Shown here piece after piece: positions 3,245-36,939 of a DNA stretch of 36,939 nucleotides; positions within the stretch are counted from its first letter, which is position 1; every line of letters starts with the position of its first letter. Location: positions 1 through 36,939 of IMG/VR virus record IMGVR_UViG_3300036853_000144; one strand, written 5' to 3'. The notes under the pieces are model-generated. The model saw nothing but the letters and a program-made list of their open reading frames with translations, made no database searches and was not told where the DNA came from. The stretch comes from a virus. Both the position numbers and the translations under genes were made by a program.

Positions 3245-3694
3245 TTATTCCGCGGGCGTTACATCGATCGTTTGTGCAGCATTGCCGTTTCGGGCTTCCC
3301 GTGCGGCAATTGCTTTTTGTATCCGATCGTTTAAACTCTGGCGGGCGTTATTGATTTCTAACGGCGGGCCGGTAAACGGCAAAGTTTCCGCCGAGTGCAC
3401 CATCACAATGTCACGCATCACCGATATAAATACGCGCCCATCCTCGGGCGTTACGTCCCCCGATGCCATCTTGCCGAGCAAATCGTGCATCGCCTCACGA
3501 ACATCGGCAACGTTGCGTGTGGGGCGCAAGGCGAGTTGGACCGGCCCGCTTTTTGGCAGGGGCCATATGCGGTCAAGGATCAGCTTGGCCGCGGTCATGT
3601 CCCCGGCACGTGCGGCAACGAGCACGCTCTCGAGGATTTCGACGGCGTGGGCTTTTGCCATCCGGTTCAGGCGTTTGCGTGGTTCCCCCACCAT
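3245..3694 (-). CDS. DUF5681-like phage protein
   Basis: The product has 149 residues from ATG 3694; a TTG at 3718 would add eight. The central segment (EILESVLVAARAGDMTAAK, then LILDRIWP and a conserved helical stretch) resembles DUF5681-type proteins, which are often found in phages of Proteobacteria and Acidobacteriota and are sometimes suspected of being small-terminase-like. It is all helical apart from the loop. It lies leftward between two rightward blocks and ends four bases from the stop of the PP-loop gene. A near-perfect promoter places transcription start at its ATG. Confidence 0.65.
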   Translation of the reverse strand: MVGEPRKRLNRMAKAHAVEILESVLVAARAGDMTAAKLILDRIWPLPKSGPVQLALRPTRNVADVREAMHDLLGKMASGDVTPEDGRVFISVMRDIVMVHSAETLPFTGPPLEINNARQSLNDRIQKAIAAREARNGNAAQTIDVTPAE

Positions 3695-3701
3695 GTGGCT
3701 G

Positions 3702-3731
3702 ATTATACGGTTTTTCAATGGGTTGGTTCAA
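3702..3731 (-). promoter_or_regulatory. Sigma-70 promoter for the DUF5681-like gene, apparently leaderless
   Basis: Reading leftward, TTGAAC (plus-strand 3726-3731) and TATAAT (3702-3707) are separated by 18 bases. The TATAAT box is a perfect match and ends 7 bases before the ATG at 3694. Transcription would therefore begin at the start codon itself, and no Shine-Dalgarno sequence precedes it. Confidence 0.65.
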
Positions 3732-3751
3732 GCGGGGACGGTTTTGGCGGT

Positions 3752-3783
3752 GGTTTGGCGGAATGTTCCGCCAAACCGGTTCC
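3752..3783. repeat. Palindrome upstream of the double-HTH gene (copy 1)
   Basis: GGTTTGGCGGAA (3752-3763) and its exact complement (3766-3777) flank two bases. An 18-base block, TTCCGCCAAACCGGTTCC (3766-3783), recurs exactly at 4004-4021. An extra half-site TTTGGCGG lies at 3743-3750. The palindrome sits about 30 bases before the GTG at 3805, where a repressor or replication initiator would bind. Confidence 0.85.
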
Positions 3784-3792
3784 AGGTGTTGC

Positions 3793-3798
3793 TAGAAT
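3793..3798 (+). promoter_or_regulatory. TAGAAT -10 box next to the double-HTH gene start
   Basis: TAGAAT ends 6 bases before the GTG start at 3805. There is no Shine-Dalgarno sequence and no good -35 hexamer at the usual distance, where the palindrome lies instead. This may be a leaderless, operator-covered promoter. Confidence 0.4.
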
Positions 3799-3804
3799 GC
3801 CCGC

Positions 3805-4230
3805 GTGGCGAAAAAACAGGAATTGCAACTGGTAACGCAGGAATTGGCCGCACGCAAGCTAGGCGTCAGCACGCGGCGTATTCGCGAAATGGCTCTTGAG
3901 GGGAAGTTGCCGCGGCATCGGGCGGTTGATCCCGCCACGCGCCGAGAGGTGTACATGTTTGCAGCGCAGGATGTAGATAGACTCGGCGGTACTTTGGCGG
4001 AAGTTCCGCCAAACCGGTTCCTATTGCCCGCATCGCCCGCCCCGAGCGATACGTTATGGCTCTCGGTGTCCGAGGCCGCGGCGTATTCGGGGATTGCCGA
4101 AAAAACGCTATTGCGCCTCATCCGCGAGGGGAAGTTGCCCGCGATCGATCAACACGTGCGTGGGGACAAGTGGCGCATCCGCCGAAAAACGTTAGAGGAG
4201 TTCGATGGGTCCAGTCCCGCCAAACGGTAA
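3805..4230 (+). CDS. Double helix-turn-helix DNA-binding protein (excisionase/MerR-like)
   Basis: The product has 141 residues and a GTG start. Two HTH_17-type winged domains are visible, at about residues 10-58 (QELAARKLGVSTRRIREMA) and 82-136 (LSVSEAAAYSGIAEKTLLR). A short linker joins them. The linker (residues 63-72) is encoded by the second copy of a palindrome that also lies upstream of the gene. The gene overlaps the primase gene by 26 bases. Context suggests a replication initiator or an autoregulator of the replication operon. Excisionase is the usual annotation of such domains, but no integrase is present. Confidence 0.78.
   Translation: MAKKQELQLVTQELAARKLGVSTRRIREMALEGKLPRHRAVDPATRREVYMFAAQDVDRLGGTLAEVPPNRFLLPASPAPSDTLWLSVSEAAAYSGIAEKTLLRLIREGKLPAIDQHVRGDKWRIRRKTLEEFDGSSPAKR
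3993..4021. repeat. Palindrome inside the double-HTH gene (copy 2)
   Basis: TTTGGCGGAA (3993-4002), one base, then its complement TTCCGCCAAA (4004-4013), continuing with CCGGTTCC to 4021. The right-hand 18 bases equal 3766-3783. It encodes the linker between the two HTH domains. A further half-site CCGCCAAA lies at 4217-4224, giving six copies of the 8-mer within 3743-4224. Confidence 0.85.
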
Positions 4231-5908
4231 CGGCAACGGTAACGGCCTTTCGCGCAAGGGCCGGTGGGCGAAAGGTTACGCCCAGGTGATGGGAATACCT
4301 GTGTTCCCACTGGGCGATCGCACGAAGTTGCCGCGCCCCAAATCGCACGGGCATCTGGATGCGACAACCGATCTTGCCCAAATCGAGGCGTGGTGGACGA
4401 AATGCCCGAACGCCAATGTGGCGATGCGGTGCACGCTCTATTTCGTGTTCGACGTGGACCCTCGCAACGGCGGGGACGAATCCTTGCGATTGCTGATTGC
4501 CGAACACGGCCCGTTGCCCGATACGTTGTCGCAAATCACGGCCCGCAAGGGGACGCAATACTTTTTCCTGCAACCCGATCAACGTGAGGTGACGGGGTGC
4601 GTGGGCCTTTGGGACGGGATCGATATCAAGGGCGCGAAAGGCTACGTGGTGTTGCCCCCGTCCGAGACGCCCGATGGGGTGTATGCGTGGGACGGAGAGA
4701 AAAACCCCCAGGATCAACCCATACTGCCCGCCCCCGAATGGTTGCTCACGGCGATCTTTGAAAAACAATCGAACGATGCGGAGAATGCCCCGGCAAGCGA
4801 CACCGGGGCCGCGGACACGCTCGAGCTCGCCGCGATGGTGGCTAAGGCCATGCCGGCCGAGGGGGAGCGTCACGATACGTTTCTGGCGATTTCCGGTTTC
4901 CTTGCCCGTCGCCGGTGCCCTGAGGACAAATGCCGCGAACTGATCCGTGCGGTGTACAGGTACCTCTGGAAAGGGCAAGCCAAATTCACCGAGGCCGATA
5001 AGGACGTGTCGTATACCTACGCCCGCTATACGCAAGGCGATAAGGTTACCGGGTATTACACGCTCAAGGATGGCGGGTTTCCGAAAAACGTATTACGTGC
5101 CCTCGGCGATTGGGCCGAAGCGCATCACGATCAGGAAATCGTGGACGCCGCGGCGGATGCCGCGCCCGAGGATTTGCTCGGGTTTATCAACAAAGACCGG
5201 ATGTTGGCGCAACGCGGGATCGAGTTTACCTACGGTATCGAACGGGTGGGAAGCGGATTACAGGCCGATGTTTGGATAGGTGGCGAGCAGGGGCGCGTCA
5301 AGTGGGAGTCGATCGGGGATTTGCTCAAGCTCGACAAAACCCGTGAGGCGGTGGCGACGTGCTTAGGCGTAAACCTGATTCCCACGCGGGAAGCGCAAGC
5401 GGATTGGCAGCATGTTGCCCACTCGATCCTGCAATTGGCGCGGGGGGAGCGGTTGAGTAAAGCCGATGCCCTGCGGGCCGAGGTGCAAAACCTGGCCGCC
5501 ACCGCCTTGCGGCAGTCCTACGAAAAAGTGACGTTGCGCGAGGATTTGGGGTTGTTGTGGGAAGCCCTCAAGATCTACACACCGGTCGATTCGGTGCTCG
5601 ATTCCCGCGGGCACATCACAATCATCGATTTCCCGCAGTGCGTGTATCTGTACAACGGGGCTATCCACGTCTATGCGCCGTGCCTGTACGCGATTCAGCG
5701 GTTGCGCCGCATCCAGGGCCGTCTGACGTTGCGCGAGATCACCGAGGGCTTGCATTCGGCGGGATTCGGCCATCAGCGGTTGAAGGTGCGTATAGAGGGC
5801 GCTGATGCCAAGGCGTATCAGTGCTGGATGTATGTAGGGCCGATGACCGCGCTTGCGCCTTACTGGGAGCCGCACCAACCCCACGAAGAAGGGGCTATGG
5901 AGTTATAA
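4205..5908 (+). CDS. Bifunctional DNA primase/polymerase (PrimPol) domain protein
   Basis: The product has 567 residues. Residues 20-190 form a PrimPol domain: the metal-binding Asp83-x-Asp85 in VFDVDPRNGG, and DIKGAKGYVVLPPS near residue 140. The histidine usually found in the GGRHLYF-type motif is Gln118 here (KGTQYFF). Residues 200-310 look like the PriCT helical primase domain. The C-terminal 250 residues show no Walker motif, so there is no fused helicase. It should make primers or copy DNA at the phage origin. Its start overlaps the HTH gene, and 11-bp iterons begin two bases after its stop. A short NGNGNG run near the start is a simple-sequence repeat. Confidence 0.85.
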   Translation: MGPVPPNGNGNGNGLSRKGRWAKGYAQVMGIPVFPLGDRTKLPRPKSHGHLDATTDLAQIEAWWTKCPNANVAMRCTLYFVFDVDPRNGGDESLRLLIAEHGPLPDTLSQITARKGTQYFFLQPDQREVTGCVGLWDGIDIKGAKGYVVLPPSETPDGVYAWDGEKNPQDQPILPAPEWLLTAIFEKQSNDAENAPASDTGAADTLELAAMVAKAMPAEGERHDTFLAISGFLARRRCPEDKCRELIRAVYRYLWKGQAKFTEADKDVSYTYARYTQGDKVTGYYTLKDGGFPKNVLRALGDWAEAHHDQEIVDAAADAAPEDLLGFINKDRMLAQRGIEFTYGIERVGSGLQADVWIGGEQGRVKWESIGDLLKLDKTREAVATCLGVNLIPTREAQADWQHVAHSILQLARGERLSKADALRAEVQNLAATALRQSYEKVTLREDLGLLWEALKIYTPVDSVLDSRGHITIIDFPQCVYLYNGAIHVYAPCLYAIQRLRRIQGRLTLREITEGLHSAGFGHQRLKVRIEGADAKAYQCWMYVGPMTALAPYWEPHQPHEEGAMEL

Positions 5909-5909
5909 G

Positions 5910-6068
5910 TGGCTCACCCTGGCTCACCCCTGGCTCACCCCTGGCTCACCCCAAAAATGCCCACGCAAGTCGGTGTAACGAAAGCGTGGCTCACCCTGGC
6001 TCACCCATTTCTCGCGCGCGCGTAATTTTTCATGTTCGATTGTCTTAGTACTCTTCTGTATTCAGTAC
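5910..6068. other. Candidate replication origin: iterons plus AT-rich segment
   Basis: Four tandem copies of TGGCTCACCC(C) lie at 5910-5919, 5920-5930, 5931-5941 and 5942-5952. Two more lie at 5987-5996 and 5997-6006. A GCG-rich dinucleotide stretch and then an AT-rich stretch (about 6021-6065) follow, the latter containing a small inverted repeat GTACT/AGTAC (6048-6052, 6064-6068). Iterons beside an AT-rich unwinding region directly after a primase gene are the classic layout of a replication origin. No experiment supports this; it is a structural inference. The rest of the gap to 6128 shows no gene. Confidence 0.6.
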
Positions 6069-6128
6069 GCGCGGGTGACGCACGAGGCCTGGAAAAACCT
6101 TTAGCTTCTAAATCGGATTAGGACGCGA

Positions 6129-11587: not shown

Positions 11588-11783
11588 ACTGTTAGCATCC
11601 CGTATCCGCATGGCGGCGCGGCAACTCGCGTCCGATGCCGAGATATGCCGCATATGCCGGATCAAGCCCGAGCAACTCGAGCGTTACCGCGGCGTCATCG
11701 ATTCGCTGCGGGCCGAGACAATGGTGAGTCTCAAGATGGAGCGGGCGCGGTTAAAGGCGCGGCAAACGCGCAAGGATGAGTAA
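11580..11783 (+). CDS. Small helical protein, HTH-like
   Basis: The product has 67 residues with ATG at 11580. A short helix-turn-helix-like stretch (DAEICRICRIKPEQLERYR) is followed by a long basic helix (MVSLKMERARLKARQTRK). It stops in the base where the methyltransferase gene starts (TAATG, 11781-11785). It could help the methyltransferase or bind DNA on its own. No family is recognised. Confidence 0.6.
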   Translation: MSELLASRIRMAARQLASDAEICRICRIKPEQLERYRGVIDSLRAETMVSLKMERARLKARQTRKDE

Positions 11784-13111
11784 TGCGATTAGTCGAACAT
11801 ATCGAACGGCGGGCGTTGACCACGCTATCGCCCTACGCGCATAACGCCCGCATCCATAGCGCGGAGCAAGTGGCGCAAATCGCGCAATCGATCAAGACGT
11901 TCGGATTTAACAATCCGATCCTGATTGACGGCGAGGGCGGGATTATCGCGGGCCACGGGCGATACGCCGCGGCGTTAAAGCTCGGGATGGACGCCGCGCC
12001 GGTGATTGTGCTTGATCACTTGAGCGATCGCGAACGGCGGGCGTACATCATCGCGGATAACAAGCTTGCCGAGAATGCTACGTGGGACGATGCCGTACTT
12101 GCGGCAGAGCTCGCCGCGTTGAATGAGGAGGAGTTTGATTTATCCATCCTCGGGTTCGATGACAAGGCCCTCGAGAAATTATTGGCCGAGGATGAACCGG
12201 AGGTGCCCGAGGATGACGGGCTCGCGCCGCAATTCGAGCGGTTGAAGGAATTGCAAGCGAAATGGGGCACGGCCCGCGGGCAACTCTGGGAATTCGGCAA
12301 TCTGAAGCATCGTTTGGTTTGCGGGGATTGCACCGATGCCGGTGACGTGGCGGCGCTTATGGACGGGCGCAAGGCGCAATTGTGCTTTACGTCCCCACCG
12401 TATGCGTCTCAGCGCAATTACATGGCACCAATCGAGGATTGGAACGCGCTCATGCTCGGCATGTCGCGGAATCTGCCGATGGCGAAGGACGGGCAAGTGC
12501 TTGTCAATCTCGGCTTGGTTCACAACGAGGGCGAATGGTCGGATTACTTCTGGCAGTGGATTGAAGCGATGCGGCACATGAGTTGGCGGCGATTTGGTTT
12601 TTACGTGTGGGATCAAGGCCCGGGATTGCCGGGGGTATGGGCGGGCCGGTTTGCGCCATCACATGAGTTTGTATTTCATTTCAATCGTGAGTCACGGTTG
12701 CCGAATAAGATTGTAGATTGTGTGTCAGCGGGGCGTGTAATTCACAGCACGGGGATGCGTAATGCCGCTGGGGTAGCACAAATGAAAACCGGCGCGGGAA
12801 AACTAGTCAATGAAACGAAAATCCCGGATTCCATCATTGCCGTAATGCGCCATATGGCGCGTGGTATTGAAATGGATCATCCCGCTGTGTTTCCGGTGGC
12901 GCTTGCCGCATTCATGGTTGAAGCATGGACGAATCGAAACGAATTGTGCTACGAACCATTCGCGGGATCGGGTACACAATTCCTTGCCGCGGAGCGTTTG
13001 CGCCGTACATGCTACGGATGCGAAATCGCGCCCGAGTACTGCGCGGTGATCTTAGAGCGTATGACCGAGGCGGGCATGACGCCACACCGGATTGATCCGA
13101 GTGGATCGTGA
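11783..13111 (+). CDS. ParB-domain / beta-class DNA methyltransferase fusion
   Basis: The product has 442 residues. Residues 10-95 are a ParB/sulfiredoxin-like domain with the GHGRYAAA motif (57-64). Residues 170-435 are an N6-adenine or N4-cytosine methyltransferase: the catalytic TSPPYA (residues 203-208) precedes the AdoMet-binding EPFAGSGT (391-398), the order seen in beta-class enzymes. This fusion is common in phages and mobile elements. No restriction enzyme gene is next to it, so it is probably an orphan that protects phage DNA or alters regulation. The segment around 12660-12960 is richer in AT than the rest, which suggests a recombined target-recognition region. Confidence 0.88.
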   Translation: MRLVEHIERRALTTLSPYAHNARIHSAEQVAQIAQSIKTFGFNNPILIDGEGGIIAGHGRYAAALKLGMDAAPVIVLDHLSDRERRAYIIADNKLAENATWDDAVLAAELAALNEEEFDLSILGFDDKALEKLLAEDEPEVPEDDGLAPQFERLKELQAKWGTARGQLWEFGNLKHRLVCGDCTDAGDVAALMDGRKAQLCFTSPPYASQRNYMAPIEDWNALMLGMSRNLPMAKDGQVLVNLGLVHNEGEWSDYFWQWIEAMRHMSWRRFGFYVWDQGPGLPGVWAGRFAPSHEFVFHFNRESRLPNKIVDCVSAGRVIHSTGMRNAAGVAQMKTGAGKLVNETKIPDSIIAVMRHMARGIEMDHPAVFPVALAAFMVEAWTNRNELCYEPFAGSGTQFLAAERLRRTCYGCEIAPEYCAVILERMTEAGMTPHRIDPSGS

Positions 13112-13972: not shown

Positions 13973-14094
13973 TTCTGTTCTGATTCCTTAAGTTTGAGTT
14001 GACGTGGTGTTTGTTCCCGTCATGCTTACTATGATGCCACAAGAACTTATAGAGTTTCAAGTATTTCTAGAAGTTATTTATGTTCAATGAATGC

Positions 14095-14100
14095 TAGAAT
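14095..14100 (+). promoter_or_regulatory. TAGAAT -10 box before the coiled-coil gene
   Basis: TAGAAT ends 8 bases before ATG 14109 with no Shine-Dalgarno sequence between. The surrounding 14040-14100 is AT-rich. No good -35 is seen at 16-18 bases. It matches the leaderless-like pattern seen at other first genes in this window. Confidence 0.4.
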
Positions 14101-14108
14101 GATAGGGT

Positions 14109-14417
14109 ATGACCTGGGAACAGATGCACGAAACGATGGCTTTCCTGCTAGCAAGCCAAGCGTCTCACGATGCACAGATTGAAAAGCTGATTGAGAATCA
14201 AGCCAAACTTCAGGATTCGATGAGGGAATGGCACGAGGATCGGCAGCAGATGAACAAGACCATGCTGAACCTGATTGAACGCCAGAATGCCACATTCGAG
14301 CGTTTGGACAAGATGGAATCAGCCGCCGAGCAACGCAGCAAGGAGGCCGATGCGCGAATGACACGCCTCGAGAAGCTGTTCGAGCGCTCGATCACTCGCG
14401 GGCAGAACGGGAACTAA
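14109..14417 (+). CDS. Coiled-coil protein
   Basis: The product has 102 residues, almost all helix with heptad spacing of hydrophobic residues from about residue 20 to 95, and repeated Met/Asn/Gln. It resembles short coiled-coil proteins of unknown role found in Acidobacteriota and Cyanobacteria. The start ATG 14109 has a -10 box just upstream instead of a ribosome binding site. It is followed four bases later by a ribbon-helix-helix gene, so the pair may form an operon. Confidence 0.65.
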   Translation: MTWEQMHETMAFLLASQASHDAQIEKLIENQAKLQDSMREWHEDRQQMNKTMLNLIERQNATFERLDKMESAAEQRSKEADARMTRLEKLFERSITRGQNGN

Positions 14418-14421
14418 CGCG

Positions 14422-14598
14422 ATGCCTCCTATTCCCGAAGGAAAAAAGACGCTGTACAATATCGTGCCGGCAGAACTGGCCGAGGCGATTGATCAGTATC
14501 GATTCAAGCGGCAATTCCGGTCTGTTAATGCCGCGGTGGTTCATCTCTTGCGTTATGCCGTCAAGGCAAACCCGCCGAAGCCCGAGGAGGTGAAGTGA
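14422..14598 (+). CDS. Ribbon-helix-helix (Arc-like) DNA-binding protein
   Basis: The product has 58 residues from ATG 14422. The strand LYNIVPA is followed by two helices (ELAEAIDQYRFKR and NAAVVHLLRYAVK), the fold of Arc/CopG dimers that insert a beta ribbon into the major groove. It is probably a transcriptional regulator. The last 38 bases overlap the 3' end of the leftward winged-helix gene. Confidence 0.65.
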   Translation: MPPIPEGKKTLYNIVPAELAEAIDQYRFKRQFRSVNAAVVHLLRYAVKANPPKPEEVK

Positions 14599-15121
14599 TT
14601 TGATCAAACCACGCATCGCTCGAGAGGGGATGCGGCACCCGAGCGGCGTATTGTTCGTAAGATTCGCTTTCCTTGTACGTCAGAACCGGCCCCGGTTCGC
14701 GTTGATAAGGAATATAAGACGCCCGCGGCCTGTAGTGCGGCGGGGGTTTGTAGTTGTCTATAGGTTTATAAGGATGGCCCCCGTCACGCTTGTCAGGGGT
14801 GGGGGGAGCGGCGCAATAGGTATAGGTGAGGTAATAGACCGCGGTATGGCCGGGGTTGACGATCGAATACACCACGCCCCGCGCCTTGAGCAAATGCAGG
14901 ATGCGGTAAATCGAGCGTTCGCTGTATCCGGTGTAGCGGGCAAGCTCGGGCACGCTGATGCGCCCGTTGCGCGTGGACGTCTGGCACGCCGCGTTGATCG
15001 CGATGTAGAGCTTACATTCCGCGGGCGTTACATCGGTGAACGCGTCCAACCGGCGCGGCGATCGGACCCACGGCACGGGGCGCGGCGTGCGAATCCAGGC
15101 GAGGGCCGCGGTTGGCCTCAT
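14561..15121 (-). CDS. Winged-helix DNA-binding protein
   Basis: The product has 186 residues, ATG at 15121. Residues 25-95 form a winged helix: TPAECKLYIAINAACQ, then ISVPELARYTGYSERSIYRI with the recognition helix, then LKARGVVYSIV as the wing. This fits replication-initiator or regulator types with a GntR/MarR-like N-domain. The C-terminal half is rich in Pro and Tyr and looks disordered. It runs against the two rightward genes at 14109-14598 and converges on them. A role in lysogeny or replication control is possible but unproven. Confidence 0.7.
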   Translation of the reverse strand: MRPTAALAWIRTPRPVPWVRSPRRLDAFTDVTPAECKLYIAINAACQTSTRNGRISVPELARYTGYSERSIYRILHLLKARGVVYSIVNPGHTAVYYLTYTYCAAPPTPDKRDGGHPYKPIDNYKPPPHYRPRASYIPYQREPGPVLTYKESESYEQYAARVPHPLSSDAWFDQITSPPRASAGLP

Positions 15122-36590: not shown

Positions 36591-36939
36591 ATGGCGGATT
36601 TAACTTTAAGCGATAGCGCGATAAGTATCGAGCAAAACTCATGGTTTCGCGCCCGCGTGCGATCGGCAACGAGCAAGTATGCAAATTACCTGCTCAACAC
36701 TCCCACCGATGACCCGATCTATTCGGACAAGATCGCCGCGGGATTGCGGATTTCGCAATCCGCGGATATGGTTGTCAATCAATTGATGTTCACGATGGCG
36801 GGCGATGCGGAAGTGATCGCCGCTGGACCGGGCGTACCCGATGCGACACTGCAAACCATCGTGGAAAAGACGATTCAGAAGTTTTGGCCGGTGACACCGG
36901 CGCCCGCGGCGATGGCCTATTACCCGCCGGGATATCAAG
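36591..36939 (+). CDS. Small late protein crossing the genome joint, N-terminal part
   Basis: ATG 36591 with AAAAAGGAGA (36571-36580) upstream. The frame runs off the window and continues at base 1 (stop 159), for 126 residues in all. The N-terminal half (SWFRARVRSATSKYANYLL, then a Asp/Pro-rich segment) is helical. It is next after the tail fibre. No family is recognised. Confidence 0.82.
   Translation, partial: MADLTLSDSAISIEQNSWFRARVRSATSKYANYLLNTPTDDPIYSDKIAAGLRISQSADMVVNQLMFTMAGDAEVIAAGPGVPDATLQTIVEKTIQKFWPVTPAPAAMAYYPPGYQ
36813..36939. repeat. Terminal direct repeat, right copy
   Basis: This copy is identical to bases 1-127. It lies inside the small late gene and preserves its frame. 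See the left copy for interpretation. Confidence 0.93.

Follow-up and report, generated by a model that had tools for sequence, protein, structure and literature searches.

A near-identical pair of palindromes as putative operators of an early HTH-primase operon in a phage genome

Two near-identical palindromes were found at the start of the HTH-primase operon of an uncultured phage, one just upstream of a gene whose product carries two HTH domains and the other inside that gene, in the stretch that encodes the linker between the domains. Judged from sequence, the balance tips slightly towards these palindromes being two operators of an autoregulated early operon, with putative binding by a regulator that is probably the double-HTH protein itself. 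The first-pass annotation had proposed either a replication origin within the gene, laid out as in lambda O, or an autorepressor using both sites; the lambda-like origin was not supported, whereas autoregulation through both sites, with binding still putative, is the best-supported reading.

The palindrome pair in an apparently complete phage genome

The window, that is the whole virus record of 36,939 bp, has an AT content of 41% and begins and ends with the same 127 bases (an exact terminal direct repeat, 1-127 = 36813-36939). The genome therefore appears complete, and it is probably that of a phage, 36,812 bp long and assembled as a circle. Genes for an HK97-type portal, terminase, tape measure and tail completion are present, matches to the integrase families PF00589 and PF00239 number zero across the whole record, and scans with the terminase and a PAPS-reductase-like protein returned no close phage relatives. 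Elsewhere in the record, 11783-13108 encodes a DNA methyltransferase with a fused ParB-like N-terminal domain, and the minus strand at 14561-15121 encodes a winged-HTH protein that is weakly like the phage replication-initiation family phrog_270 (E 0.007) and also weakly like TrmB/MarR-type HTH domains, making it another candidate initiator or regulator. A 20-bp exact repeat, ATTCCGCGGGCGTTACATCG, occurs at 3247-3266 and 15016-15035 in two minus-strand genes, in the 3' end of the divergent gene (Table 1) and in the 5' part of this winged-HTH gene, and encodes DVTPAE in both.

The 8-mer TTTGGCGG/CCGCCAAA has six exact copies in the record, the number noted earlier, and all of them lie inside 3743-4224. 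The number of copies is unremarkable over the whole record (six versus 3.6 expected); their clustering has a Poisson estimate of P ~1e-11 for six in 482 bp, for a word that was chosen post hoc. The copies at 3743-3750 and 4217-4224 are lone half-sites, the latter in the overlap of the HTH and primase genes, and the full palindromes have the positions ascribed to them, before the gene and in its linker-coding region (Table 1). They had been described as sharing 18 bases: the pair is present, but the longest exact run common to both is 19 bases, GTTCCGCCAAACCGGTTCC, and their spacers differ by 1 bp. The centres are separated by 238.5 bp, and residues 63-73 of the double-HTH protein (TLAEVPPNRFL) are specified by the linker palindrome and the flank on its right.

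Table 1. Features of the palindrome region, the HTH-primase operon and the DNA behind it
Feature	Position	Strand	Details
Divergent gene	3245-3694	-	ATG 3694; faint DUF5681 similarity below cut-off
Predicted promoter of divergent gene, TTGAAC-18-TATAAT	3702-3731	-	+1 ~3695; 1 found versus 0.2 expected
Single half-site TTTGGCGG	3743-3750	+	given as 11 bp ahead of the left arm of the upstream palindrome
Shared block, copy 1	3746-3783	+	38 bp, upstream of the double-HTH gene
Upstream palindrome GGTTTGGCGGAA-TG-TTCCGCCAAACC	3752-3777		12-bp arms, 2-bp spacer; proposed operator 1
Extended -10 box TGCTAGAAT of HTH-primase operon	3790-3798	+	2 in record versus 0.07 expected
Double-HTH gene	3805-4230	+	GTG start, 141 aa; HTH1 3847-3981, HTH2 4057-4203
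Shared block, copy 2	3985-4021	+	37 bp, inside the double-HTH gene
Linker palindrome TTTGGCGGAA-G-TTCCGCCAAA	3993-4013		10-bp arms, 1-bp spacer; proposed operator 2
Prim-Pol primase gene	4205-5908	+	ATG 4205, 567 aa; PF09250, E 3.5e-34
Third partial copy AGTCCCGCCAAAC, half-site	4213-4225	+	in HTH/primase overlap; repeat family D2, 92%
Four iterons TGGCTCACCC(C)	5910-5951	+	10-11 bp apart, directly past the primase stop
Two further TGGCTCACCC iterons	5987-6006	+	followed by a 54% AT stretch, 6007-6120

The likeness between the two sites is wider than the palindromes themselves. The shared block is identical in 35 of 38 columns with one 1-nt gap, and includes flanks (GGCGGT and CGGTTCC) that lie outside the palindrome symmetry, while beyond the block edges the DNA is unrelated between the copies (p 0.22 for the right flank, 0.94 for the left). 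No other perfect inverted repeat in the record combines arms of at least 9 bp with a spacer of 2 bp or less. When the record was shuffled 20 times with dinucleotides preserved, the arms of the longest repeat of this kind usually measured 8-9 bp, and single shuffles reached 10 and 11, so each palindrome alone is moderately unusual; the strong signal is the near-identical pair. Synonymous recoding of the gene produced an equally long inverted repeat six times in 5000 trials, and it recreated the 19-base match with the upstream DNA once in 5000. A third full site was found nowhere else in the genome, as expected for a local operator pair.

The double-HTH protein and its operon

Palindrome 1 lies between divergent genes, each with a predicted promoter and a +1 at or beside the start codon. 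The promoters were assigned from consensus and spacing, and the start of the divergent gene was picked from promoter and sequence. For the HTH-primase operon the predicted +1 is the GTG at 3805, and both divergent messages are apparently leaderless, since each -10 box stands only 6-7 bases ahead of its start codon. Palindrome 1 is centred at -40.5 of this predicted +1 and spans -53 to -28, a position suited to a repressor or a class II activator. The second copy of TGCTAGAAT, at 14092-14100, is upstream of an ORF at 14109-14417 and may mark another early promoter. Downstream, the primase gene has a Shine-Dalgarno-like GAGGAG and does overlap the end of the HTH gene, as reported earlier, by 26 bp.

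The whole double-HTH protein scores 68.7 bits against PF12728 (HTH_17; curated cut-off 27), with 51.8 bits for HTH2 and a weak 21.1 bits for HTH1 alone. Its matches in Pfam, PHROGs and NCBIfam are HTH_17, MerR, Cox and excisionase only, and an O-type (Phage_rep_O) domain is absent from it in the same three collections. HTH1 and HTH2 match each other with only E 0.14 in BLASTP, but they are of the same domain type (E 3e-5 in a profile comparison). Structure prediction from a thin alignment (pTM 0.41 for the whole model) gave helices for HTH1 and a well-predicted winged HTH for HTH2, with low confidence in residues 60-80, the palindrome-encoded linker, and modest confidence in residues 38-60 of the first half. 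The fold matches, none of them significant by E-value, were BldC, MerR-type regulators, RdfS, Pukovnik Xis, Tn916 Xis and TraN, and a search of solved structures by sequence gave a chance match only. A true excisionase role is unlikely because the genome, complete as it looks, has no recognisable integrase. Searches of viral contigs, phages, plasmids and approximately 300 genomes of one phylum found no double-HTH homologue with this linker, and the matches that they returned were to HTH2 only or to other multi-HTH proteins, for example at locus L054.

Primase homologues from genomes of two phyla yielded 24 loci for which the neighbourhoods were listed. By inspection, the primase gene in 18 of these distant loci is immediately preceded, and often overlapped, by a small HTH gene, and a family scan of the 18 upstream proteins found HTH_17 in 16 and AlpA in four. 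The HTH-before-Prim-Pol layout is thus common, and the gene pair in the window is ordinary in that respect; the double-HTH gene appears to occupy the slot that a single HTH_17 or AlpA gene holds before Prim-Pol in many mobile elements. A fused HTH pair with a palindrome in the linker was seen only here among the inspected loci. Perfect, near-spacerless palindromes upstream of the HTH gene occur at L039 (13-bp arms) and L043 (9-bp arms); their sequences are unlike those of the window and most other loci have no such palindromes, so they lend weak support to operators at HTH genes of this kind.

Putative operators and how the second may have arisen

In this reading the double-HTH protein, a fused pair of excisionase/MerR-type HTH domains, would bind two sites, probably as a dimer. 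One would be operator 1, which lies across the -35 region of the protein's extended -10 promoter and on its other side looks towards the divergent promoter; the other would be operator 2, within the protein's own gene. Control would thereby extend to the regulator itself, to the primase coupled to it and possibly to the divergent gene. At the distance between the two sites, action by looping or as a roadblock may apply. According to the predicted model, the second site falls in the low-confidence linker, where the protein sequence can presumably best yield to the DNA sequence.

The main point against one rigid dimer at both sites is the difference in spacers, since 1 bp turns one half-site by ~36 degrees, which is unusual for one dimer binding both sites; it is speculation that two HTH domains on a flexible linker might tolerate the difference. 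Excisionase-type proteins often bind direct repeats or, in the case of TraN, a site that has no repeats. Long perfect palindromes are atypical for such binders, which counts against the double-HTH protein as the one that binds here, and the binder could be another phage regulator or a host regulator.

Operator 2 may have entered the linker by copying of the operator block, or by fusion of tandem HTH genes that each bore an operator. An old fusion would need later convergence or conversion of both operators. Recent tandem duplication of a whole operator-HTH unit is unlikely because the copies cease to resemble each other outside the 38-bp block and the likeness between HTH1 and HTH2 is only a distant one. 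At L046, one HTH_17 gene is followed by a second small HTH-looking gene without a Pfam match, which is a possible picture of the pre-fusion state. The fuller proposal, that the regulator binds an operator coding for its own interdomain linker, left there by fusion of operator-HTH units, and that evolution must keep both linker and palindrome, is tentative and is itself judged rather unlikely.

There is a lesser but real chance that the palindromic block was copied locally into a tolerant linker and is non-functional or selfish there, with the upstream copy alone, or neither copy, being bound. The shared block includes asymmetric flanks that a palindrome does not need, the difference of 1 bp between the spacers is compatible with drift or with repair of the frame, and a linker tolerates extra residues. 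However, the arms of the linker copy are still perfectly complementary, and scans with the core palindrome, which gave 13 isolated matches in 84,980 species genomes and five in viral contigs with no shared flanks, lent no support to a dispersed (REP-like) repeat family in these collections; a host-wide repeat family may still exist.

The candidate replication origin

It is improbable that the palindromes form a replication origin at which the double-HTH protein or the primase would act as initiator. The lambda origin, in the middle of gene O, consists of four iterons and an AT-rich tract (PMC7466680), and the likeness to it is that here, too, the coding sequence of a DNA-binding protein contains putative sites for protein binding, which specify part of the product. 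The differences are that the two palindromes stand far apart, that the protein belongs to an unrelated family and that an AT tract is lacking: the double-HTH gene contains a single palindrome and no iteron array, and AT content is 46% at 3700-3805 and 44% at 3985-4025 against 41% in the record. The gene does adjoin a primase, its double HTH sets the protein apart from a typical single-domain excisionase, and palindromic initiator sites exist, RepB of pAL5000 being an instance cited in PMC7157519; but the missing array, AT-rich tract and O-type domain, and the distance between the sites, all argue against an origin at this position, and an iteron array is found just 3' of the primase instead, where the origins of phage-inducible chromosomal islands (PICIs) lie (PMC6092414).

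This array comprises six exact TGGCTCACCC iterons in non-coding DNA (5910-6006), with 10-11-bp spacing within each of its two sets. In PICIs, the origin immediately 3' of the replication gene has two iteron sets around an AT-rich region (PMC6092414). The match in position is good; the AT-rich part is only suggestive here, as the 35 bp between the iteron sets are 49% AT and the stretch after them is 54%. A search of other viral contigs for the pair of 10-mer iterons gave no match. Because the iterons match the PICI position and the palindromes have neither array nor AT tract, the likely origin is placed at ~5.9-6.1 kb, with the array behind the primase as the best candidate. The origin assignment is corrected to that extent, and the iteron array after the primase is the place to seek the origin of this phage.

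Control at the RNA level, through transcript hairpins that act in attenuation, stability or as a translation barrier, is about as improbable: predicted folding is stronger for the upstream region than for its shuffled versions (-32.7 kcal/mol, z -2.7) and less clearly so for the linker copy (z -1.6), but a predicted +1 at 3805 excludes hairpin 1 from the HTH mRNA and the conserved asymmetric flanks would go unexplained. An intrinsic terminator at either palindrome was rejected, as no T-run follows, and no known RNA family was matched in Rfam.

Comparison with known regulators

The AlpA/xis - pri-rep - ori module of PICIs likewise has a small HTH regulator upstream of a primase and iterons in non-coding DNA immediately 3' of the replication gene (PMC6092414). 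In the PICIs of E. coli, AlpA switches on its own promoter as well as replication of the island (PMC6092414), and control of its own expression is what is proposed for the double-HTH protein. The locus described here differs in belonging to an apparently complete phage genome without a recognisable integrase, in its two fused HTH domains, in the operator-like copy inside the regulator gene, and in its Prim-Pol, in which no helicase domain is recognised: the C-terminal 317 aa have no Pfam match and no recognisable replication initiator/helicase (rep) part.

TraN of pIP501 is an example of a single chain whose two HTH units of this type can fill neighbouring major grooves, and it binds a 34-bp AT-rich site near oriT without inverted repeats (PMC4981023). 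The likeness lies in two excisionase/MerR-type HTH units in one chain, with a weak fold match. A TraN-like internal dimer would have two mirrored HTH folds packed via a central barrel; here there are two HTH domains by sequence, joined by a low-confidence linker in a model whose pTM of 0.41 is too low to place them relative to each other. No operator in its own gene is described for TraN (PMC4981023), whereas a putative one is found here in the linker.

In gal and lac, one operator lies at the promoter and a second inside coding sequence, 100-400 bp apart. The internal operator there is in an enzyme gene, whereas in this phage it would lie in the gene of the regulator itself and encode the interdomain linker. 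Operators in coding sequences are known, but one that encodes the linker of its own putative binder would, if true, be a compact instance of one piece of DNA under selection for two functions. It would also, if true, hint at how tandem regulator genes might become two-domain regulators.
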